Below are positions 10,564 through 29,258 of a stretch of DNA of 46,085 bases, in pieces. The position numbers and the translations under genes are program-made. Position 1 is the first letter of the stretch. Every line of letters begins with the position of its first letter. The stretch lies in contig JAHFDA010000018.1 of the NCBI GenBank assembly GCA_023249225.1, forward strand, positions 1-46,085, read 5' to 3'. This DNA comes from a bacterium. Lineage in GTDB: Bacteria; Margulisbacteria; Marinamargulisbacteria; JAHFDA01. The notes beneath the pieces are model-generated. The model searched no databases, had not been told where the DNA came from, and worked only from the letters and a program-made list of their open reading frames with translations.

Positions 10564-11628
10564 CTAAGTGTCAGTTGCGGGCTGCTGCATGGTTAGACAA
10601 TGACAGGCCCCCAAACCCCACACCAGTTTGCGTGAAGGAATGGCTACCACTTTACGGGTTGGAAAATGTTCCTGGAGAATGGCCCGCGCGCGGGCATCTT
10701 GCGGATCATCAAATACAGGCAGCAGCACAACCTTGTTTCCAATATAAAAGTTGGCATAACTTGCGGGTACCCGCTGGCCATCCCAGGCCACCGCTTTGGG
10801 CATGGGCAAGGGAACAATATTAAAGGGCTTGCCTGCGGGGTCATACATCCGTTGAAGCAGCTTAAAATTGTCCTGCGTCAGCCCATGGTTGGGGTCTGAA
10901 GCATCTTGCTCAAGCACGCAGACAATCACGCTGGTATTTACAAAGCGCGCCAGATCATCAATATGGCCATCGGTATCATCGCCGACAATGCCTTCGCCAA
11001 GCCATAAGACTTGCTGGACGCCCAATACATCTTTTAACTTTTGCTCGATCTGCTCCTGCGACAAGGAAGGATTACGATTTGGATTCAGCAGACAAGATTG
11101 GGTGGTTAAAAGCACCCCCTGGTCATTGACATCCAGTGATCCGCCTTCCATCACCAAGGCTTGCTTAAATCTGGGCAGGGCCAATTTACGGGCCACTTTA
11201 TCCGGAATGGCATTATCCAGATCCCAGGGCGGATACTTGCCGCCCCACATGTTGAACTGCCAGTCGGTCACGGCCAGTTGAATTTGTCCTTCTACCTGGC
11301 GCCGCACAAAAAGCGGGCCTGAATCACGTATCCATGAATCATTACTCGGCCAGGGAATAAATTCGATCTGGTTTAGATCGGCATCGCAGTCTAAAAGCAA
11401 ACGTGTGGCGGATTCCAGCACGGACTCGTCTTTGATCAAAATACATACTTGTTCGCCCTGCGAAAGCGCGGCTGCCATCTGACTAAAGATGGGCGGAATT
11501 TCAGCGAGCATGCCTGGCCAGGTGTTGGGGTTATGCGGCCATACCAACCAGGTGGCTTCATGCGGTTCCCATTCGGCCGGCATACGAAAGCCCTGCGATG
11601 CCGGGCTTTGGTCAAGGTGAATCTTCAC
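10564..11628 (-). CDS. aguA: agmatine deiminase
   Basis: Converts agmatine to N-carbamoylputrescine and ammonia in putrescine synthesis. It is a member of the PAD/guanidino-modifying fold. Motifs are FRMPAEWEPHEATWLVWPH at the N-terminus, WIRDSGP, EGGSLDVNDQG, a GIVGDDTDGHIDDLARF segment with catalytic Asp/His, and C-terminal GACHCLTMQQP with catalytic Cys344. At 354 aa it has normal length. The start is GTG (11626-11628), overlapping the aguB stop TGA, so aguB and aguA are translationally coupled. Confidence 0.94.
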   Translation of the reverse strand: MKIHLDQSPASQGFRMPAEWEPHEATWLVWPHNPNTWPGMLAEIPPIFSQMAAALSQGEQVCILIKDESVLESATRLLLDCDADLNQIEFIPWPSNDSWIRDSGPLFVRRQVEGQIQLAVTDWQFNMWGGKYPPWDLDNAIPDKVARKLALPRFKQALVMEGGSLDVNDQGVLLTTQSCLLNPNRNPSLSQEQIEQKLKDVLGVQQVLWLGEGIVGDDTDGHIDDLARFVNTSVIVCVLEQDASDPNHGLTQDNFKLLQRMYDPAGKPFNIVPLPMPKAVAWDGQRVPASYANFYIGNKVVLLPVFDDPQDARARAILQEHFPTRKVVAIPSRKLVWGLGACHCLTMQQPATDT

Positions 11629-12488
11629 GCGTCGATTACCCGCGCCAAAATGGGCTGGTAAGCATCAATGCGCCGGTCACGTAAAAAAGGCCAAAGCTGG
11701 CGGGTCTTTTCGATCAAATCGAGATCACAGCTTTGAATCAAAATATCTGGCTGGGTATCGCTCGCCTGGGCCAATAGAGCGCCAAATGGATCGCTGACAA
11801 ACGATGAGCCCCAGAAATGAAGCTGCCCTTCGACACCCACACGGTTTGCAGCCGCCACAAAGACCCCATTGGCAATCGCGTGAGCGCGCTGAATCGTGAT
11901 CCATGCCTCGCGCTGGCGCTGATACACGGGCTGGTCGCTTTTGCTAAAACCGATGGCTGTCGGATAAAAAAGAATCTGCGCACCCTGCAGTGCAAGCAGG
12001 CGCGCCGCCTCGGGATACCACTGATCCCAGCAAATCAACACCCCTATTTTTCCGTAACGGGTTTTAAAGACCGGAAATCCAAGGTCTCCGGGCGCAAAGT
12101 AGTATTTTTCATAAAACCCAGGATCATCGGGAATATGCATCTTGCGGTAAGTTCCCAAAACCGCACCATCGGCATCGATCACCAGCACGGCGTTGTGATA
12201 CACGCCTTCCATGCGCTTTTCAAAAATGGGCACGATCAGTACCACCCCAAGCTCTTTGGCCAACTGGGCCATCTGCTTGAAACTTGGACCGGGAACGGTT
12301 TCAGCCAGTGAAAAATTTTCGACCGCCTCGGTCTGCGCAAAATACAGGCTGCGGTAAAGTTCCTGCAGACAAATCACCTGGGCGCCGCGGCGCGCCGCTT
12401 CACGAATAGCGGTTTCGGTCTGGCGTAGGTTCTGGGCAAGATCTGCGGTACAGCCTTGCTGGATAATTCCTAAAGTCACTTGGGCCAT
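11625..12488 (-). CDS. aguB: N-carbamoylputrescine amidase
   Basis: Nitrilase-superfamily enzyme that hydrolyses N-carbamoylputrescine to putrescine, CO2 and ammonia. The catalytic triad is Glu43 (ICLQELYR), Lys116 (TYRKMHIPDDPGF) and Cys153 (GVLICWDQWYPEAAR). The chosen ATG (12486-12488) gives 287 aa starting MAQVTLGIIQQ, where nitrilase folds normally begin; ten more codons are open upstream. It is first in a two-gene operon with aguA, a common pairing for the agmatine route. Confidence 0.95.
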   Translation of the reverse strand: MAQVTLGIIQQGCTADLAQNLRQTETAIREAARRGAQVICLQELYRSLYFAQTEAVENFSLAETVPGPSFKQMAQLAKELGVVLIVPIFEKRMEGVYHNAVLVIDADGAVLGTYRKMHIPDDPGFYEKYYFAPGDLGFPVFKTRYGKIGVLICWDQWYPEAARLLALQGAQILFYPTAIGFSKSDQPVYQRQREAWITIQRAHAIANGVFVAAANRVGVEGQLHFWGSSFVSDPFGALLAQASDTQPDILIQSCDLDLIEKTRQLWPFLRDRRIDAYQPILARVIDA

Positions 12489-12524
12489 TGCGATTCTATT
12501 GTAAAACAAACGGCACAATACGAG

Positions 12525-18621: not shown

Positions 18622-19617
18622 TTACCGGGCAAACACAAGCGTGGGGCTGTGCCAAAGTTTCCCCTCCGTATCCAGTGTCAGGACATTGATGCTGGGCGGC
18701 AGGGATAGGGTTTCGAGCTTACCCAGCACAAACAGTGTGGTGCTTAAAATATCCGCATCCAGTCCGCTTTCTGCACATACCGAAACCAGCGTGTAACCCG
18801 GTTTAACCTGCGTCTTTAAGCGCGGATCAAAAATAGGATGCGTTACCCAGGCCTCGCCTAGCGGCCAATGCTGCGACAGACTGGAACTTGCCAGTGTCTG
18901 ACCGCTTTGCAGCATGATCTTTCCGAGCAAGGCATTGGGCTGGCGCGGGTCTTCGATGCCTACCGGCCAATCTCCATGGGCGGGATCTTGCCCCCATACC
19001 GTAATCTGCCCGCCCAGGTCGAGCAGCGCGGCAGGCACTTTAAGCGCTTTGAACATCAAGAGCGCACGGTCAGCGGCATACCCTTTAGACGCCCCCCAGA
19101 CATCGACTTGCGTCAGAGGGTGGCGCAGAGCCCCCACTTGGTTATAAGGATCAAGCCAAAGATTCTGCCAGCCAATACCGGCTGCCTGGCTTTGCCATAT
19201 ACGGCTGACGGCAGATGGATCGGTCGTGACCCGGTAAGCCAATGTAAGCGCACCCACGGTGGGATCAAAGGCACCCTGCGACCAACGGGCATAATACAGG
19301 CTGCGGTCAAGAATGGCGTACAGTTCTGGACTCAAGCGCATATTGCGCTGCGCATTAAGCAAAGACACTTCACTGTGGGGGTCGTAGAGGTTACTTTTGT
19401 TTTCGACCGATTTAAGCTCGGCAAATACGGCCTCGGCCACCTGTCCGGCTCCAGCAGGATCTTGCATATATAAAGTAAGCCGACAACGGGTCCCCAGAGC
19501 ATGGGTTTCAAATGAGAGCGCCTTATACGGCAGGCGTGGTTTTAACGCATACAAAATTCCCAGCACACAAAGCAGTGCCAGAATGGGTAAGTGCCATTTT
19601 TTTTTGAGTGAAATCAA
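18622..19617 (-). CDS. apbE: FAD:protein FMN transferase
   Basis: Transfers FMN from FAD covalently to Thr/Ser of target proteins outside the cytoplasm. The 331-aa protein has an N-terminal membrane anchor (residues 9-27), ETHALGTRCRLTLY, SLYDPHSEVSLLNA-like and AFDPTVGAL elements, DVWGASKGYAADRA, ALLDLGGQITVWG, and the C-terminal metal-binding GLDADILSTTLFVLG. The start is TTG, overlapping the TGA of the upstream membrane-protein gene. It is last in the porin/FMN-binding/membrane/ApbE unit, whose second gene encodes its likely substrate. Confidence 0.93.
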   Translation of the reverse strand: MISLKKKWHLPILALLCVLGILYALKPRLPYKALSFETHALGTRCRLTLYMQDPAGAGQVAEAVFAELKSVENKSNLYDPHSEVSLLNAQRNMRLSPELYAILDRSLYYARWSQGAFDPTVGALTLAYRVTTDPSAVSRIWQSQAAGIGWQNLWLDPYNQVGALRHPLTQVDVWGASKGYAADRALLMFKALKVPAALLDLGGQITVWGQDPAHGDWPVGIEDPRQPNALLGKIMLQSGQTLASSSLSQHWPLGEAWVTHPIFDPRLKTQVKPGYTLVSVCAESGLDADILSTTLFVLGKLETLSLPPSINVLTLDTEGKLWHSPTLVFAR

Positions 19618-20126
19618 GCCTCGGGACGGTCTTTGATTTGCCAGTTATACCGGTCCCAAAACCATAAATAGGCTAGCAACGCCAACATCAAAAACCCAAG
19701 CACCGACTGCAGGCACACAAAAGAGAAAACTTTAAGCCAGGCCCAGGCCGGATGCCCAAAACGCACCAGCCAGCTTGAAGCCTCTTGCAAAAAAGCGCTG
19801 GCAAATGCCAGCACAATCACAAATACCTTAAGCGGTTTTGAGACCGGCACAAAAATCATCAGGTGTGTCAGCATCAGAATAACCAGCGCCATGATCGGCA
19901 GGTGAAAATGCGAGGTTTCGGACAGACCTTCGAACGTTTTTGGCACCTGAAATGTGGCGTCAGAACCCCGATAATACGCCACCACCGATTGCGGATTTAA
20001 ATTCATGTGCGCAAAATACATGGCAAAATTGGTCAGCCAGAAGAAAAACAAAAACATCAGCGTCAGGCTAAGCGTCAGGCGCATGAGCGGGTTGTGTTTA
20101 AAGCCGCCTTTTTCCATATACTTCAT
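19614..20126 (-). CDS. four-helix membrane protein, possible b-type cytochrome
   Basis: A 170-aa protein with four hydrophobic helices (about 18-40, 74-95, 99-121 and 133-157). His residues sit at helix edges: His40 at the end of helix 1, His75 and His88 on helix 2, and His125 between helices 3 and 4. A His pair 13 residues apart on one helix is what di-heme membrane cytochromes use, so heme binding is possible but unproven. ATGA overlap with the FMN-binding gene before it and TTGA overlap with apbE after it show tight coupling. The likely role is passing electrons between membrane and the flavinylated partner. Confidence 0.7.
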   Translation of the reverse strand: MKYMEKGGFKHNPLMRLTLSLTLMFLFFFWLTNFAMYFAHMNLNPQSVVAYYRGSDATFQVPKTFEGLSETSHFHLPIMALVILMLTHLMIFVPVSKPLKVFVIVLAFASAFLQEASSWLVRFGHPAWAWLKVFSFVCLQSVLGFLMLALLAYLWFWDRYNWQIKDRPEA

Positions 20127-20665
20127 GGGATACTGTCCTTGGAGCGAATCATAACATCATAGACTGCCAGGGCACGCCGGACGGCTTTAAGCGTGGCCCA
20201 GCTGCTTAACGTAGACCCCGCCACCGCCACGATATCTTGCTTGAGCCAAAGAGCATCCGAAAGCGTCCTGCCTTGGAACAACTTAAGCCACCGCTGTGGC
20301 GGCAGAAAATCCTGCGGTTCGTTAAACGCCAGCGTACAGATGCTGGTCACCCGACTTTCGGCATCCAAGACCACTAAAAGTGTTTCGGGCTGCGTGCGCA
20401 CCACATGCGTGTCAAAAAAGGCATACCCCAGATTTTTTCCATCGCGCATGGCCTGGTAGTACACCAGCAGCTGACTATCCAGCTTGGATCTGGCCCGTTG
20501 TTCGATCATTGATTTTTGTTCTGGCGTAAGAAAGAGCTCCTGACGCAGTACGTTGGCGCTTAAAAAAACCTCATGCAACGCTTGTGCCTGGGTCTGAAAG
20601 ACCTGGGCGTGAGCCACGCTGGAAAGCATGACCCACGTCCAGATAAAGCTGCTTAATCTACGCAC
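20123..20665 (-). CDS. secreted FMN-binding (RnfG/NqrC-type) protein
   Basis: A 180-aa protein with a signal peptide (MRRLSSFIWTWVMLSSVAHA, cleavage about residue 20). The C-terminal part matches the FMN_bind domain: a VLDAESRVTSICTLAFNEP strand pair and the attachment motif D143-IVAVAGST-LSS, a variant of D-x-x-S-G-A-T-x-T/S in which Thr152 would be flavinylated. Start GTG. It is translationally coupled to the membrane protein and apbE downstream and starts 11 bp after the porin stop. It is the expected ApbE substrate and periplasmic electron carrier. Confidence 0.8.
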   Translation of the reverse strand: MRRLSSFIWTWVMLSSVAHAQVFQTQAQALHEVFLSANVLRQELFLTPEQKSMIEQRARSKLDSQLLVYYQAMRDGKNLGYAFFDTHVVRTQPETLLVVLDAESRVTSICTLAFNEPQDFLPPQRWLKLFQGRTLSDALWLKQDIVAVAGSTLSSWATLKAVRRALAVYDVMIRSKDSIP

Positions 20666-20676
20666 AACAAATGCTA

Positions 20677-21918
20677 TTAAAACATAAAGGTAGACGCAAA
20701 ACGCATGGAGTCCACCCCGGAATTATCGCCAAGGATTTCATTTTGGTAGTCTACCTTAAGCGCCACGTTGGGATGCGGCAGGTAACACAGGCCAAATACC
20801 AGATAGCTTTTGTCATTGGCGGCGCTGGCCGTGACTGTCGAAAGCACCGCTGCCTGGGTGTTGAACTTTTCGTAACGCACAAAGGGCATCAATGCCTGTT
20901 CACTTTGTGGCATAAAATGCGGCAGAATGTCGTATGCTGCTTCAACATAGTAACCGTATTGCGAGGTTCCTGCCGCAAAATCGGCCGTGACAGAACTGGC
21001 ATTGGTCAGACTGGTATTGGCATACAGCGCACGCAATTCAAGTTGCCCAAGCTTTAAACGACTGTGCAAATCCCATAACAAGAGTCCCACGTTGGCGCCG
21101 GTCTGGCCTTGATCCGTGCCACCCATGAAAAACGAAGCCCCCAACAGCGACCCCGGTTGCAGTTCGTAATCAAGGCGTCCGCTAAGCGCAATATCTTCCA
21201 TTTTGGCTTTAGACCCCTCTTGGCGTCCGTCACGAATGCCGCTTTCGTCAAAACTGCCGCTGCTGCCGGTGGCCGAAAGACTTTCAGAGGCGTAAAATTC
21301 ATAGCGGATTTGTTCACCCAATTGTCCAAAAACACCGGCACCGTTTGCTCTCCAAGTGGTAGGTATCATTTTTTGTTCCACTTCAGGACGGCGGACAGAA
21401 AAAAATGTGGGTGGTTCGTGGATTTGATTGTAAATACCCACGGGAATCAGCAGCATGCCCGTGCGAAAGTTTGCCACTGGACACATGAGAAAATCAAGAT
21501 ACGCAAACTCCACCGAAACCTCACCATTTTTTCCGCCACTGCCATGTTCAAATTCAATTTCAGAATTCATCAAGATGCTGTCAGAAAACTTATAACCCAG
21601 ATAAAGCACCTGTCGCAGGTAGTCGATGGTGTCGTTTTTGCCACCTGCCGTTCCATTGTCTTTAAGATCGGCATACCGGTCGTAGACCATCTCGCCGTAA
21701 CCCGCCAGTGACAGGCCTTTTGACTGGCTGTAGATTTTAGACGCTGCCGGACCAAGGCCCGTCTTAACGCTGGTTTCGCCAGCCACCTCGCCCAGTTTTA
21801 ATTGTTCAATTTCCCTGGAAAGAATGTCGATTTTTCTATCAAGTTCACTCACATCTGCTGCGCTAGCAATGCCATAGCATAAACACAACATAAGACCCGC
21901 CACACACCATTTTTGCAT
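20677..21918 (-). CDS. outer-membrane porin-like beta-barrel
   Basis: A 413-aa protein with a signal peptide (cleavage about ASAADV, residue 20) and a short coiled coil (ELDRKIDILSREIEQLKLGE), as in trimeric porins. A long alternating-strand region follows, ending in FASTFMF, a C-terminal aromatic outer-membrane signature. The segment LLIPVGIYNQIHEPPTFF followed by RRPEVE and IPTTWRANGAG is a recognisable conserved stretch of an outer-membrane family I know only as uncharacterised. AAGGAG lies 6 bp before the ATG. A Fur box and a second palindrome are upstream, and it is first in the flavin unit, so it may pass iron or a redox substrate. Confidence 0.8.
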   Translation of the reverse strand: MQKWCVAGLMLCLCYGIASAADVSELDRKIDILSREIEQLKLGEVAGETSVKTGLGPAASKIYSQSKGLSLAGYGEMVYDRYADLKDNGTAGGKNDTIDYLRQVLYLGYKFSDSILMNSEIEFEHGSGGKNGEVSVEFAYLDFLMCPVANFRTGMLLIPVGIYNQIHEPPTFFSVRRPEVEQKMIPTTWRANGAGVFGQLGEQIRYEFYASESLSATGSSGSFDESGIRDGRQEGSKAKMEDIALSGRLDYELQPGSLLGASFFMGGTDQGQTGANVGLLLWDLHSRLKLGQLELRALYANTSLTNASSVTADFAAGTSQYGYYVEAAYDILPHFMPQSEQALMPFVRYEKFNTQAAVLSTVTASAANDKSYLVFGLCYLPHPNVALKVDYQNEILGDNSGVDSMRFASTFMF

Positions 21919-21938
21919 TTATATCTCCTTATTTGATA

Positions 21939-21955
21939 ATGATAACTGTTATCAT
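21939..21955 (-). promoter_or_regulatory. Fur box upstream of the porin-flavin operon
   Basis: ATGATAAC-T-GTTATCAT is a perfect 8-1-8 palindrome matching the 7-1-7 Fur consensus (TGATAATnATTATCA) except for the inner T/A pair, here C/G. Its edge is 21 bp before the porin ATG. A Fur-family gene lies in the same island. Binding predicts repression by Fe(II)-Fur. Confidence 0.75.
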
Positions 21956-21983
21956 AAACAAATTACTTATCTATTTTAATTCG

Positions 21984-21996
21984 GACTAAAATAGTC
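21984..21996. promoter_or_regulatory. possible Rrf2/IscR-type operator
   Basis: GACTA-AAA-TAGTC is a perfect palindrome preceded by CG. A second degenerate copy (CGGACTATATAGGAT) starts at 22049. Rrf2-family iron-sulfur regulators often bind GAC-(AT)7-GTC-like sites. It sits in the AT-rich porin promoter region (21956-22089). The regulator is not in the window. Confidence 0.35.
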
Positions 21997-22089
21997 TGTC
22001 AATAAAAAATTAATTTAATTATTTAGTGTGATTTAAGTCAAATTAAATCGGACTATATAGGATTTAATTACAGAAAAATCGCTTTCAGG

Positions 22090-22587
22090 CTACTTATTTG
22101 CAATCAACTTTTCAATTTCCTTATCGGCAAAAAACAAACCGCGACTGTCCGTGCCAGCCATCTTAATGGTGCCAATAATGGTGTTGAAAAGTTTTTCTTC
22201 TTCATGTTGTTCGGCCACAAACCACTGCAAAAAATTAAAGGTGGCAAAATCTTTTTCCTTAAGGGCAAGCTCTACAATACTGCTGATTGATTGGGTCACT
22301 TCCTTTTCGTGCTTGAGTACGATTTCAAACAGTTGCAGCAACGACTTGAAAGTGTGGGGCACCTTGGGCACAGGTTGCACCAAGGCATGCGCGCCTGCAT
22401 CAATCACATATTTAAACATCTTCATCATATGGCCCTTTTCCTCTTCGGAGTGGGCGTACAGAAACTTGGCCGAACCAAAGTAACCTTCTTTGTCGCACCA
22501 CGATGCCATCGAAAGATAATAATGCGAGGCGTAATCTTCAAGTCCAACTTGCGTATTAAGGGCGTTTTGGATTTTTACGGACAACAT
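22090..22587 (-). CDS. non-heme ferritin
   Basis: Iron-storage protein of 165 aa, the length of bacterial FtnA. Ferroxidase ligands line up with E. coli numbering: Glu17, Glu50, His53, Glu94, Gln127 and Glu130. The chosen ATG (22585-22587) has AAAGGAG 8 bp upstream; the frame is open 20 codons further but without support. It stores Fe as a ferric core, complementing the FeoAB importer and Fur in this island. Single gene, own promoter likely upstream near 22620-22680. Confidence 0.94.
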   Translation of the reverse strand: MLSVKIQNALNTQVGLEDYASHYYLSMASWCDKEGYFGSAKFLYAHSEEEKGHMMKMFKYVIDAGAHALVQPVPKVPHTFKSLLQLFEIVLKHEKEVTQSISSIVELALKEKDFATFNFLQWFVAEQHEEEKLFNTIIGTIKMAGTDSRGLFFADKEIEKLIANK

Positions 22588-22690
22588 AAACCAGCTCCTT
22601 TTATCGTTATTCATTGACAGTCTGTGCCCGACTTGCAGGCGTGTCAAGTTAGGGTAAAGAAGGCATTTTTCTAGGTTTTATATGGCGTAA

Positions 22691-23551: not shown

Positions 23552-24364
23552 TCACTTTGTTACGCAACAGGTTAAGGCTGACTGTATTCCGGCCACCGTA
23601 AAAATTGCGGTCATGGTGATAATGATGGCCGCGCTGCTGGGCCAGTCATAGCGGACGGATAAACCCAAACCAAGTGCGGCTGCGGTGATGCCCATGGTTG
23701 AACCTATCAAAAAACGCCTGCCAAAACTTTGGGCAAAAAGCAGTGAAAACAAACTGGGAACAATCAAAAACGTAAACACCAAAAGCACGCCGGCAATGCG
23801 CACCGAACTTGTAACCACCACGCCGAACAAGGCGTAAAAAGCCATGTCCCAAAAACGCTGGGGCCAGTCAGGCTCCTGATGGAAGTTTTCGGAATTCTTT
23901 GCAAAGCGCTTGTGCAGCAGCGCGGCGGCAGCGCCCACACCGGCATAAATCAGCGCTGCATGCTTTAAACCTTTGGGGGTTAGAAACAAAATTGAACCGT
24001 TCAGGATATGTTCCAGGTGCTCCGCGCCCTGGGGCAAATGGCTCATCACCAGCGTGGCCAGGGCCGTGGCAGCTACAAAGGTCATGCCAATGATGGCCTC
24101 GTGCGGAATGCGGTCGCTGCGGCTGCGCGTAAGCGAAAAAATCGCTGCACCGATGAGCGTGAACAAAAAGGAGATGCCGTAAGCCCACAGGCTTTGCTCA
24201 TCAATGTTCATAAGATGCGCAAAGCTGATGCCCAACGCAGCCAGCTGGGCCAGCGCAAGATCCACAAAAATGACCTTGCGGCTGACCACATGCTGGCCAA
24301 AGTACCCATGGATGAATACCAATATCACACACGCCAAAAACGGTACAAGCAAAAAAGAAAGCAT
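23552..24364 (-). CDS. znuB: ABC-3 family metal transporter permease
   Basis: Inner-membrane permease of a Zn/Mn/Fe importer (ZnuB/MntB/TroC family). The 270-aa protein has about eight hydrophobic helices, begins MLSFLLVPFLACVILVFIHG and contains VSRKVIFVDLALAQLAALG, the typical ABC-3 coupling region. It starts 3 bp after the binding-protein gene. The unit lacks the ATPase (ZnuC) on either side within the window. The metal cannot be told; the symbol is by similarity. Confidence 0.85.
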   Translation of the reverse strand: MLSFLLVPFLACVILVFIHGYFGQHVVSRKVIFVDLALAQLAALGISFAHLMNIDEQSLWAYGISFLFTLIGAAIFSLTRSRSDRIPHEAIIGMTFVAATALATLVMSHLPQGAEHLEHILNGSILFLTPKGLKHAALIYAGVGAAAALLHKRFAKNSENFHQEPDWPQRFWDMAFYALFGVVVTSSVRIAGVLLVFTFLIVPSLFSLLFAQSFGRRFLIGSTMGITAAALGLGLSVRYDWPSSAAIIITMTAIFTVAGIQSALTCCVTK

Positions 24365-24367
24365 GGT

Positions 24368-25270
24368 TTAATCTTTGAGCGCAGCGTATAGCACGCGTAC
24401 ATTGTAATCAAACATGGCGTTATAGCTGGCTGTCTGTGCATCTCCTCCACTGGCCGAAGGCAACACCAATACCTGCAAGCGGGGGTTATCTTTTTGAAAG
24501 CACTCGCCCTCGGCGCTGCTGTGAAACGGATCAATGATAATCACCTTGATTTTTTCGCGCGCGATCTTCTGCGACAGTGCCACCATGTGCGAGGGCGGGG
24601 GCGTGATGCCCGGCTTGGGCTCCAGCTCGCCCACCAGCTCCAGATTAAAAGCATCTGCAAAGTAAGTCCAGTTGCGGTGATAAGTAATCACGCGCCGGTC
24701 CTTAAGCCCATCGAGGAGTTTTTTCCATTCCAACTGTTTTTGGTTAAGCAGAGCACTATACGTACGAAAATTGGCCTGAAAATATGCCGCGTGCTGCGGG
24801 TCAAGCGCAGCCAGCCGCTTTTGCATGGTGTCGGCCACCCGTACGCCATTGAGCGGGTTAAGCATGTAATGCGGATTGCCCTGTGGGTGCAAGTCGCCCT
24901 TGGCGCGCGTCAGTTCAGTAGGAATATCCAAAATGGGAATACCCACGCTGGCATCCAGGTATCCCGATTGTCCTTTTTGAATGCGCGGATTGCGCGAGTT
25001 TTCAATCAGGTAATCCATCCACTGATCGAGTTCCATACCGTTTACCACAGCCAGGTCGGCGTGCGCCAGACGGGCAATAAAACTGGGCTTGGGATCGATA
25101 AAGTGCGGATCCTCGTTACCCTTGGCCACCGCACTGACTTCGACAAATTGACCGCCAATGTTTTTAGCAATGTCCGCAAAATCTGGCAACGCACAAACCA
25201 CCATGAGCTTGGCATGGCCCACAGAAAATAAGACCCGCGTAAAAACGACCAGGAAAATTATTATTTTCAT
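24368..25270 (-). CDS. znuA: periplasmic metal-binding protein (cluster A-1)
   Basis: Solute-binding protein delivering Zn, Mn or Fe to the permease. The ATG at 25268-25270 has AAGGATT upstream and gives 300 aa with a signal peptide (to about GHA, residue 19); the frame is open 70 codons more but is non-native there. Likely ligands: His in NEDPHFIDP, His in QGNPHYMLNP, His in TYHRNWTYFADAF and Asp/His in IIDPFHSS. The His-rich loop of Zn-specific ZnuA is absent, so Mn or Fe is possible. It lies between an outer-membrane protein gene and the permease. Confidence 0.85.
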   Translation of the reverse strand: MKIIIFLVVFTRVLFSVGHAKLMVVCALPDFADIAKNIGGQFVEVSAVAKGNEDPHFIDPKPSFIARLAHADLAVVNGMELDQWMDYLIENSRNPRIQKGQSGYLDASVGIPILDIPTELTRAKGDLHPQGNPHYMLNPLNGVRVADTMQKRLAALDPQHAAYFQANFRTYSALLNQKQLEWKKLLDGLKDRRVITYHRNWTYFADAFNLELVGELEPKPGITPPPSHMVALSQKIAREKIKVIIIDPFHSSAEGECFQKDNPRLQVLVLPSASGGDAQTASYNAMFDYNVRVLYAALKD

Positions 25271-25283
25271 AAATAATCCTTTT

Positions 25284-26306
25284 TTAGTACGGATGCACCG
25301 CATGCGGGCCCAGCACAAAAACATACTGGATACGCACATCAAGCGTCTTGACGCCGGCGGTGTCGGTATTTTGGCTGATTTGCCCACGGTATCTGCCAAA
25401 TTCGCTGGGACTAAATGATCCAAAGACCGCCAGGCGCATGTCCCGTCCAGTGCTGGCCGGGCTTTGAGACGTTTCCCCAAGACTGCCGAACTCCCATTCG
25501 CGATTTAAGCACAGGGAGAGCACACCAAAATAAGCATTGGTATTTACCAGCGCGCCAGCATTGTCATAGTTGCTGCTCAGATATTCGCTGTGTAATTTCC
25601 AATAAGTGTTGGCGGCAAGCTTGTCTTTAAGCTGTGCATAAAAACCGGTCAGCGCGGTATTGCCGCCGGTGCTGTTATGGCCATTGGCCAAGGACAAGCC
25701 GGTCTCAAGGCCGATCGCGTCTGTCAGCTCAAAAAAGTTTTTCCATTGGCCCACATAAACCGGAAAAACATCACCCGTGCTAAAAGAGGTTCCGTTGTCG
25801 TTGATCAGTTGCAGCGTCCATTCCGAAAAAAAAGGCAGCGGCAGTAAGCCCGATGCCGAAACCCCGGCGTCGGCCAGACGTTCGCCAAAATAATGCGTGA
25901 TCAGCAAGGGTTCGGTCAAAAAAGGATAGACGTGGGTGTGGAGTCGATTCAGCTTTCCAAAGTCGGCAAAAAATTTTCCTAACTTGTACTGCAAATCAAA
26001 CGGGCCCACCGGAACCTGCACAAAACCTTCTTCAAGGTTAAATTCGTCACCCTCTTTGGACAGCAGAACATAGGCTTTGGCAAAGGGATCAATGTCTGCG
26101 TTAAGTCCCAGTTCGATTTCTTTAACACTGGCGCGGGCGTTGTCGGCATTGGCCGGATCATTTGAATAATCTGCTTCGAGCGTACCTACCACCGACAGCT
26201 TGGGATTTAAGGCTGCGGGGTTGGCAACGGTCATTTCGGCATACAGCACTACAGGAAAAAGGCAAGCGGTCAAAAAAAATAAAAGTGTTTTTTTAATTGA
26301 AAGCAT
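25284..26306 (-). CDS. outer-membrane protein linked to the metal ABC importer
   Basis: A 340-aa protein with a signal peptide (MLSIKKTLLFFLTACLFPVVLYA). The mature chain has alternating beta-strand pattern (VGTLEADYSND, KAYVLLSKEGDEF, GPFDLQYKLGKFFADFGKLN), typical of a beta-barrel, and ends VHPY. His residues at the end and in LHTHVYPF might bind metal. AGGGG lies before the ATG. It starts the unit OMP-znuA-znuB (14-bp and 3-bp gaps), so it is probably the outer-membrane pore for the same metal. A near-perfect palindrome lies just upstream. Confidence 0.8.
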   Translation of the reverse strand: MLSIKKTLLFFLTACLFPVVLYAEMTVANPAALNPKLSVVGTLEADYSNDPANADNARASVKEIELGLNADIDPFAKAYVLLSKEGDEFNLEEGFVQVPVGPFDLQYKLGKFFADFGKLNRLHTHVYPFLTEPLLITHYFGERLADAGVSASGLLPLPFFSEWTLQLINDNGTSFSTGDVFPVYVGQWKNFFELTDAIGLETGLSLANGHNSTGGNTALTGFYAQLKDKLAANTYWKLHSEYLSSNYDNAGALVNTNAYFGVLSLCLNREWEFGSLGETSQSPASTGRDMRLAVFGSFSPSEFGRYRGQISQNTDTAGVKTLDVRIQYVFVLGPHAVHPY

Positions 26307-26929: not shown

Positions 26930-28717
26930 CTATACAAGCCGCATGCCCACCTGGCGCACAAGCCAACCAATAAACACCGCATAGGTCACCACAAAAACAC
27001 TGATGCCCATGGCGCGCAGGCGGCCTTGTTCCTTGATCATCATTAAAAAGTGCGCCACGCAGGGAATAAACAAGGTAATCACCACCAGACTAACCACCGT
27101 TTGCAATACGGTCAGTTGGCCCTGCTCAAAAAGCCGAAAGAACCCGGCCGAGCCATAATCACGCCGTAAGAAACCCATCACAAAAGCCGGAGTGGCCGCT
27201 CCGGGCAAGCCCAGCACACCCTGCACCACCGGCATAAGAATGCGTTCGGCCAGCTTGAGCAACCCGACCTTGTCGAATATAAACAAACCCAGTGTGGCCC
27301 ACAAAAACAGAGGCACCACCTCGCGCGTAAACCAACGCATGCGGTACCAGGTTTTTTTAAGGATCGGCAGCAACTTTGGCAAACGAATGGGTGCCATCTC
27401 CATGACCAGCGCCGACGGTTTTCCGGGCATAATGAGGTTGGCGCAAAAACCTACAATACAAAGCTGCATCAACACAATACCAAGCACAGTAAACACTGCC
27501 CACGAACCAATGGCCGCTGTAATACCCAGCACCACGCCCAGTTGGGCCGAGCAAGGCACCCCCACCGCCAAAAGCAGGGTGGCAATAAAGCGCTCGCGCT
27601 TGGTCTGCAAAATACGCGTCGTCATGGTGGCCATGGTGGCACAACCCAGACCCAGTACCATTGGCAAAATGGCCTTGCCGTTTAAACCCAGATACTTAAA
27701 GAGGCGGTTTGACAGAATAGTCAGCCGAGGCAGGTAACCCGAGTCTTCAAACAAGGCAAAAGCCAGAAAAAAAGTAAATACAATCGGCAGCACAATGGCC
27801 AGGGAATAGGTGAGACCCATGCTGATGACTCCGTATTCGCCAAAGAGCAGGTCATGAAAAAACGGCAACGGCACCACAGCCGTAAAGGCTTTGGCCAAGG
27901 CAGGTACCATGTAAGCACCAAAAACTTTTTTTTCTAAATAATTGACCAGGGTTCCTGCCCCAAACACACCCACAAACTGGTACATAAAGTACATGGCCAT
28001 ACAAAAAAATGGCACACCCCAGAGAGGATGCATCATCAGGTTGCCTGCACGCACCTTAAGATCGGCCGTAGGTGATTTTTTGCGGGTCAGCACCTGATCC
28101 ACAAGCTGGTGGATGGCGTTGTCACAGATAATCGATACGGCGGGCTTTTCAAAGACCTGCGGCATGCGCGGCACGGCTGCAAACGGAAGTTGCTCGGCAA
28201 TGCCATCAATACCTTGCCGTTTGGTGGCTACCGTCATCAGCACCGGAATGCTTAAGGCCTTAGAAAGCTTGGGAATATCGATGGTCAGACCCGCTTGGGT
28301 GGCTTCATCCATCATGTTAAGTACCAAGATCATTGGAATGCGCAACTCGGCCAGCTCGGCGGTCAAAAGCAGGCTACGGTGCAGGTTCTTGGCTTCAGCC
28401 ACCTGCACCACAATTGGATTTTTGGCGCTGATGATCATACGCCGGGTGGCTTTTTCGTCTTCGGAGGTCTGGGCCGCATGCAAACTGTGCACCCCAGGTG
28501 TGTCAACGGCCACGATCTGTTTACCGGCATAAGGCATACTGCCGCGCGTCACCGCCACCGTGGTGCCAGAGTAGTTGGAGGCAATCACATATTTTTGGGT
28601 CAACCCATGAAAGAGAACAGACTTACCCACGTTGGGATGCCCCACCAGCAACACTGTGGGTTCGGCTTGTACATCGGCTGTAATTTTATTTTCCGGCAAT
28701 ACAGCAACATCACTCAT
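26930..28717 (-). CDS. feoB: ferrous iron transporter FeoB
   Basis: Membrane Fe(II) importer of 595 aa. The N-terminal G domain has G1 GHPNVGKS (residues 26-33), switch region SNYSGTTVAVTRG, G3 DTPG (72-75) and G4 NMMD (134-137). Two Gate regions follow, with conserved VPCSAQLGV and FVMGFLRRDYGSAGFF. It is shorter than E. coli FeoB (773 aa), with a compressed N-terminal linker. Its ATG overlaps the fur stop by 4 bp, so uptake is made together with its regulator. Confidence 0.96.
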   Translation of the reverse strand: MSDVAVLPENKITADVQAEPTVLLVGHPNVGKSVLFHGLTQKYVIASNYSGTTVAVTRGSMPYAGKQIVAVDTPGVHSLHAAQTSEDEKATRRMIISAKNPIVVQVAEAKNLHRSLLLTAELAELRIPMILVLNMMDEATQAGLTIDIPKLSKALSIPVLMTVATKRQGIDGIAEQLPFAAVPRMPQVFEKPAVSIICDNAIHQLVDQVLTRKKSPTADLKVRAGNLMMHPLWGVPFFCMAMYFMYQFVGVFGAGTLVNYLEKKVFGAYMVPALAKAFTAVVPLPFFHDLLFGEYGVISMGLTYSLAIVLPIVFTFFLAFALFEDSGYLPRLTILSNRLFKYLGLNGKAILPMVLGLGCATMATMTTRILQTKRERFIATLLLAVGVPCSAQLGVVLGITAAIGSWAVFTVLGIVLMQLCIVGFCANLIMPGKPSALVMEMAPIRLPKLLPILKKTWYRMRWFTREVVPLFLWATLGLFIFDKVGLLKLAERILMPVVQGVLGLPGAATPAFVMGFLRRDYGSAGFFRLFEQGQLTVLQTVVSLVVITLFIPCVAHFLMMIKEQGRLRAMGISVFVVTYAVFIGWLVRQVGMRLV

Positions 28718-29175
28718 GTGGAAGGATTTTCCTTACTTTGGCATTCGGGACAAACACCAAAAATTTCGAGCCGGTGCCACAACATTTTAAAACCATGGTC
28801 TATGGCAATCTTGGCTTTTTTATCTTCAAGCTGCTGATCGACAAATTCAATGACTTTGCGGCAGCGCACACAAATAATGTGTTCATGATGCACATGCCCA
28901 AAGGACTGATCGTAACGCACACGGCCATCATCAAAGCGTTTTTCTTCGGCAATATTACAGTGCGCCAGCAGCTTCATGTTGCGGTAAACCGTCGCCTGGC
29001 CCATCAGATAACCCTGCCGCCGCAACATACTCAGCATGTCTTCGACTGATACGTGTTCTTCGGTGCTTAAAAATGTACGAACGATATACTCGCGCTGATG
29101 GGTCCACTTAAGCGCTTTGCGCTTTACAAAGTCTTTAAATAGAATGACGGCAGAGTCGAGTTGGGTTGTTTCCAC
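28714..29175 (-). CDS. fur: Fur-family regulator
   Basis: Metal-dependent repressor. From the GTG at 29173-29175 it is 153 aa, the usual Fur length. Winged-helix region WTHQREYIVRTFL..GQATVYRNMKLL, metal site HVHHEHIICVRCRKVIEF and a C-terminal CPEC for structural zinc. The frame stays open to 29250, but that longer version would run through a perfect Fur box, so the GTG start is preferred. It is first in the fur-feoB-feoA operon and probably autoregulated. Fur proper is the simplest reading given the box and cargo; Zur or Mur cannot be excluded. Confidence 0.9.
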   Translation of the reverse strand: METTQLDSAVILFKDFVKRKALKWTHQREYIVRTFLSTEEHVSVEDMLSMLRRQGYLMGQATVYRNMKLLAHCNIAEEKRFDDGRVRYDQSFGHVHHEHIICVRCRKVIEFVDQQLEDKKAKIAIDHGFKMLWHRLEIFGVCPECQSKENPST

Positions 29176-29196
29176 AAGATAACTATAACCTAGATT

Positions 29197-29213
29197 TTGA
29201 TAATCATTATCAA
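29197..29213 (-). promoter_or_regulatory. Fur box of the fur-feoB-feoA operon
   Basis: TTGATAAT-C-ATTATCAA is a perfect 8-1-8 palindrome and a perfect 7-1-7 Fur consensus site. It lies 22 bp upstream of the GTG start. A TTGACT -35 element is at 29226-29231, so the box covers the -10 region, where binding would block transcription. Confidence 0.88.
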
Positions 29214-29258
29214 TAATATGATAAAAGTCAAATGAACCCTGACAACACAAGCATCAAT

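Follow-up and report, generated by a model that had tools for sequence, protein, structure and literature searches.

A four-gene operon was analysed in a 46,085-nucleotide stretch of DNA (hereafter the window; positions 1 to 46,085 of contig JAHFDA010000018.1, assembly GCA_023249225.1) from a bacterium of the Marinamargulisbacteria in the phylum Margulisbacteria. The operon consists of four open reading frames on the minus strand, from 18622 to 21918, which encode an outer-membrane porin, an FMN_bind protein, a four-helix membrane protein and the flavin transferase ApbE, and which are separated, from porin to ApbE, by gaps of 11, -4 and -4 bp. An initial annotation of this DNA had described four such packed genes, preceded by a box for the regulator Fur, as a candidate iron-responsive electron-transfer system, and the genes, the gaps and the box were all found in their places. 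The features of the operon are as follows.

21973–22002, minus strand: predicted sigma-70-type promoter of the operon, TTGACA-18-TAAAAT (11/12 positions matching the consensus)
21935–21953, plus strand: Fur box GATAATGATAACTGTTATC, 5' of the operon (consensus match)
20677–21918, minus strand: 16-strand outer-membrane porin, homologue of psp (gene call, homologues and structural model)
20123–20665, minus strand: secreted, RnfG-like FMN_bind protein with a GTG start (profile matches; signal peptide by eye)
20210–20212, minus strand: codon of Thr152, in the motif A-G-S-T-L-S, the predicted attachment residue for flavin mononucleotide (FMN) (alignment)
19614–20126, minus strand: four-helix membrane protein, of a family without a Pfam entry (alignment and model)
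18622–19617, minus strand: ApbE, flavin adenine dinucleotide:protein FMN transferase, with a TTG start (Pfam match and catalytic motif)

The promoter, which ends at 21973, about 20 bp ahead of the Fur box, is by its sequence a strong one. The box itself agrees with the Fur consensus at 16 of 19 positions and lies about 17–21 bp from the ATG of the porin gene, depending on the edge measured; the palindrome at its centre, ATGATAAC-A-GTTATCAT, is free of any mismatch. Shuffling of the whole window gave 0 matches as good as this box, and when only the 200 bp upstream, which are AT-rich, were shuffled, 4% of the shuffles scored similarly. The local result is weak evidence, and the genome-wide and comparative tests therefore carry the weight. 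Across the 2.83-Mb genome, the Fur consensus was found with three or fewer mismatches at only three places, namely before the operon, before fur-feoB and within lepA, and a reversed control pattern gave 0 matches in the same scan. The occurrence inside lepA is probably a chance match, and the only two non-coding boxes at this threshold are those of the operon and of fur-feoB. The features of the latter locus are as follows.

29193–29211, plus strand: second Fur box GATTTTGATAATCATTATC, 5' of fur-feoB (consensus match)
28714–29250, minus strand: fur, with a listed TTG start
26930–28717, minus strand: feoB, ferrous iron importer, sharing 4 bp with the end of fur (gene call)

No Fur-family protein other than the product of this fur gene was found in the genome. 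Since the listed TTG lies upstream of the second box, the true start of fur is probably located downstream of it. The initial annotation had placed feoB 8 kb away, which is correct for the 3' end of the operon (8.3 kb); from the 5' end the distance is 5.0 kb. Because the two best regulatory Fur boxes of the genome stand at the operon and at fur-feoB, the operon is joined to the ferrous iron importer, and the box in its promoter and the partner box at fur-feoB mark it as a predicted member of the Fur regulon.

A scan of GTDB species genomes with the four-helix protein yielded 49 loci in about ten phyla, from Myxococcota, Desulfuromonadales, Methylococcales, Acidobacteriota, Spirochaetota, Riflebacteria, Handelsmanbacteria, Binatota, Margulisbacteria and WOR-3. 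Most of these relatives are metagenome-assembled genomes, and their taxonomy and any absences are provisional. The protein is rare in the phylum of the window, with three clear matches in 74 genomes. An FMN_bind gene lies directly upstream of the four-helix gene in 47 of the 49 loci, the other two being L068, in which apbE stands between them, and L062, which is cut by a contig end. A barrel gene precedes FMN_bind wherever the contig reaches that far. ApbE is linked in about 30 of the loci, and the barrel is of the psp type in most loci and of an unrelated DUF6662 type in L064, L065 and L066; the constant module is therefore composed of barrel, FMN_bind and four-helix protein. The initial annotation had made its proposal depend on synteny of the four families elsewhere, and this synteny is what the 49 loci display. 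The barrel seems to be exchangeable between the two types, and a Fur-like box is still present ahead of the DUF6662-type barrel in L065 and L066. In L020, L050 and L055, the module has no ApbE of its own, and an adjacent, convergent Nqr-type operon includes an apbE gene, the product of which is perhaps shared. In a tree, the window sequence groups with an Acidobacteriota sequence within the psp-type group (support 99/95) and apart from L061 and L064, two relatives that belong to its class. This grouping outside its own class suggests horizontal transfer of the operon, tentatively so given the long branches.

Fur control was also examined in the relatives, by scanning the 600 bp that precede the barrel gene, with a distance-based background taken from the remaining sequence of these loci. 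A Fur-type box was found in 32 of 41 loci, where about 2 were expected (0.057 per 600 bp), and these 32 are not independent events, as many of the Myxococcota loci are related. Boxes also occur in loci of Methylococcales, Desulfuromonadales, Spirochaetota and WOR-3, and several of the boxes in the relatives are tandem. Ten Myxococcota loci have a Fur-family gene just upstream of the module. In L061, which belongs to the class of the window, feoB follows immediately after the module, and L038, L056 and L063 have it inside the flank that was fetched. Both the iron control by Fur and the functional tie to FeoB that had been proposed for the operon are supported, the first by the boxes at the operon, at fur-feoB and in the relatives, and the second by the common Fur control and the adjoining feoB of L061.

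The porin of the window has no Pfam match by itself, and its relatives match BBP2 and Porin_O_P. Its structural model (predicted local distance difference test, pLDDT, 85.7) contains 16 strands, with fold matches to OmpC, OprP and DcaP, and its N-terminus forms a coiled coil. Glu120, Glu122 and Glu124 on strand 3 are invariant in 41 sequences. Alternate residues in a beta strand point to the same side, and these three presumably share the face that lines the pore. The row may be compared to the arginine ladder of OprP, with the opposite charge, and suggests a path for cations.

Rodionov et al. (2004; PMC545781) predicted a Fur-regulated porin, psp, with tandem boxes in Geobacter metallireducens and Desulfuromonas, and gave two Desulfuromonas sites, TTGATAATGGCTTTCAT and CTGAAAACGATTTTCAT, at -139 and -86. 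Both sites were found 53 bp apart, as published, exactly upstream of the porin gene in L091 and L092, where the porin is followed by FMN_bind and then by the four-helix protein. By sequence, the porin family of the window is the psp of that text. About 15 of 136 Desulfuromonadales genomes have a strong porin match, and in nearly all of the loci that are long enough the next genes are FMN_bind and the four-helix protein. In the passages of PMC545781 that were consulted, psp is treated as a porin gene only; they mention neither the FMN_bind and four-helix partners nor the link to ApbE, nor an occurrence in about ten phyla. The initial annotation could not name the combination with this porin and the four-helix protein; the porin itself has a name, psp.

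Genes for a barrel and a redox carrier that are always adjacent have a cytochrome parallel in the porin-cytochrome conduits. As a flavin counterpart of these complexes, the FMN_bind protein could dock in the barrel and pass electrons to extracellular iron. However, a 16-strand barrel of the type matched by OmpC, OprP and DcaP is too narrow for a flavoprotein domain, and no CxxCH heme motif is present in any of the four operon proteins, so that the operon has neither the large barrel nor the multiheme component of the Mtr/Pcc conduits. An outer-membrane conduit, against which the model of an ordinary 16-strand porin speaks, is accordingly rated as very improbable.

The FMN_bind protein of the window falls below the Pfam cut-off (17.5 bits against 22), and 37 of 44 members of its family match at E <= 0.01. 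The family profile matches the RnfG structures of solved Rnf complexes (1.6e-11). The signal peptide, read by eye, ends in AHA. Thr152 aligns with the attachment residue and is the predicted flavinylation site, as had been proposed, in a motif that reads AGST. The earlier description of this motif as a variant does not hold, since the motif is nearly invariably GAT or GST among the relatives (GAT in most, GST in about nine) and AGST is normal within the family. An exported FMN_bind domain with a [S/T]GA[S/T]-like site, as is characteristic of ApbE-flavinylated systems, is therefore present. The domain and the position of the attachment motif are common to RnfG and NqrC; the carrier described here differs in being soluble and exported and in being encoded in a porin operon that contains no other rnf or nqr genes.

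ApbE is unambiguous in Pfam (3.8e-49) and has an N-terminal helix as a membrane anchor. Its DADxxST catalytic motif is intact: DADILST stands opposite DGDGLST in an alignment to a solved FMN transferase. The flavinylation pair of the earlier proposal is thus identified at the level of genes. No second FMN_bind match was found in the genome. A second ApbE-family protein (L070; G000:C13:67326-68105) is encoded by a gene that has a NadB-like flavoprotein gene on one side and a RelA/SpoT-like one on the other; its catalytic Asp/Thr motif is replaced by FTANCLAL, and it may be inactive or act in another role. With a single FMN_bind protein and a second ApbE devoid of the catalytic Asp/Thr, the operon looks like the main flavinylation system of the genome.

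The four-helix topology that had been assigned to the third protein is upheld by a confident model (pLDDT 91.6). Tyr52, Glu70, His73 and His75 are invariant in the family, and His88 is near-invariant, being absent in L065 and L066. The positive-inside rule predicts a cytoplasmic N terminus; Glu70, His73 and His75 would then lie towards the periplasm and His88 towards the cytoplasm. His75 and His88 stand on one helix at a distance of 13 residues, a spacing close to that of stacked b hemes, each of which would need a ligand from a second subunit. FezC has been modelled as forming heme sites through homodimerisation (PMC10979944), and such sites would suit His75 and His88. DUF4405 proteins and FezC are likewise small multi-helix proteins with conserved membrane histidines encoded beside flavinylation genes, whereas the family described here has four helices, a different histidine pattern and an invariant glutamate, as compared by profile for DUF4405 and by description only for FezC. 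Kinship with DUF4405 was rejected (profile comparison probability 0.4%, without a Pfam match). DUF4405 proteins themselves occur in 104 of the 136 Desulfuromonadales genomes (L113–L137), and those inspected have a long soluble C-terminal extension. Since His88 is missing in L065 and L066, a heme-free quinol site is also possible. Ferrochelatase was found in 12 of 15 module-bearing genomes, including that of the window.

Searches of Pfam and NCBIfam with the four-helix protein gave no consistent match, PDB sequence and fold searches gave no significant one, and virus contigs contained no relative. The top-ranked PDB match, heme A synthase, was not significant (E 1.6) and was not used. The family matches none of the NapH-, MsrQ-, PepSY-, DsbD- and Nqr/Rnf-like donor classes in Pfam. 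A family without a known relative might also be a small transporter that moves Fe2+ or supplies ApbE with flavin, the electrons of the flavoprotein then coming from elsewhere, and E70-x-x-H73-x-H75 could be a metal site. However, the gene is kept where ApbE is unlinked, contrary to a supply of flavin, feoB is already present as an importer, and the module would otherwise have no membrane electron donor. A transporter is for these reasons thought unlikely.

The reading favoured here, and judged fairly probable, is that the operon encodes a flavinylation-based assimilatory ferric reductase feeding FeoB. During iron shortage, Fur would leave its box and the repressed operon would be transcribed together with fur-feoB. 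The porin would let iron cross the outer membrane, as small ferric chelates or as free metal ions, and the periplasmic FMN_bind protein would receive its FMN from ApbE, at Thr152. Electrons drawn from the quinol pool, or carried across the membrane, would reach the flavin of this carrier through the four-helix protein, with the handover most likely near the periplasmic cluster of Glu70, His73 and His75. The flavin would reduce Fe(III) in the periplasm, and Fe(II) would then be imported by FeoB. Of this picture, the analysis establishes gene order, conservation, the Fur boxes, the regulator common with feoB, the porin fold and the membrane topology; flavinylation, the electron route, iron as the substrate and the site of reduction are inferred. 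Only one TonB-dependent receptor was found in the genome, and ferric-siderophore import therefore looks limited. Clustering of flavinylation genes with iron transporters is an established pattern (PMC8238504).

Several points weigh against a ferric reductase. Nine of the 41 loci have no Fur box above threshold within 600 bp, and the module of Desulfuromonadales has no linked ApbE. The four-helix protein has no known relative or significant PDB fold match, its redox role is drawn from context and the conserved Glu and His residues only, and one of its two plausible heme ligands, His88, is lost in two loci. Ferrochelatase was not found in three of the 15 module genomes, all of which may be incomplete. 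Iron as the electron acceptor is likewise deduced rather than directly supported. The same Fur control would be expected of an iron-sparing respiratory chain, in which a flavin relay replaces iron-rich periplasmic cytochromes under starvation and passes electrons to another acceptor, much as flavodoxin replaces ferredoxin. Such interchange of flavins and cytochromes has been proposed (PMC8238504). However, no recurring terminal oxidoreductase lies beside the module in the fetched loci, and uptake is the better fit to a porin gene that always comes first and to the link with feoB. An iron-sparing chain is considered improbable, if marginally less so than the transporter.

The ferric reductase proposed here has much in common with the PepSY-like and MsrQ-like iron reductase clusters of Meheust et al. 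(2021; PMC8238504), which also combine an exported FMN carrier, ApbE, a membrane electron-transfer protein and a tie to a ferrous transporter; the PepSY-like clusters in Shewanella and Caulobacter are under Fur repression. In contrast, the membrane component of the present module fits none of their five classes, nor any Pfam family, and a dedicated porin is its constant first gene, the word porin being absent from that paper. Neither the four-helix component nor the porin was found among described flavinylation systems, and no description of this gene combination was found in the literature searched, which left subscription journals mostly outside.

Next to the operon, and outside the module, lies one further gene of iron metabolism.

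22090–22647, minus strand: ferritin gene, neighbour of the operon on the same strand (gene call)

A ferritin gene beside the module was not found in the fetched loci of the relatives. Between the ferritin gene and fur-feoB (23552–26306) are genes for a ZnuA-family binding protein, an ABC-3 permease and a further porin-like protein, on account of which the region from 18.6 to 29.3 kb can be viewed as a metal-handling island. Elsewhere in the window (10564–12518), a PAD_porph-family deiminase gene adjoins one for a carbon-nitrogen hydrolase, the usual and ordinary agmatine-to-putrescine pair.

A broader proposal is put forward tentatively, as somewhat less than an even chance. The four-helix family may represent a new class of membrane donor, either a di-heme b protein that forms homodimers or a quinol oxidase free of heme, which together with psp as a cation-selective iron channel would form a siderophore-independent 'reduce and import' pathway that has moved between phyla as a unit. 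With the module, a Fur-regulated porin predicted 20 years ago gains constant partners, and an uncatalogued membrane protein family is added to flavinylation systems. To the question of how ferric iron crosses two membranes and reaches FeoB in Gram-negative bacteria that have few TonB receptors, the module offers a concrete candidate answer, in uncultured phyla as well as in the cultured Geothermobacter hydrogeniphilus HR-1.

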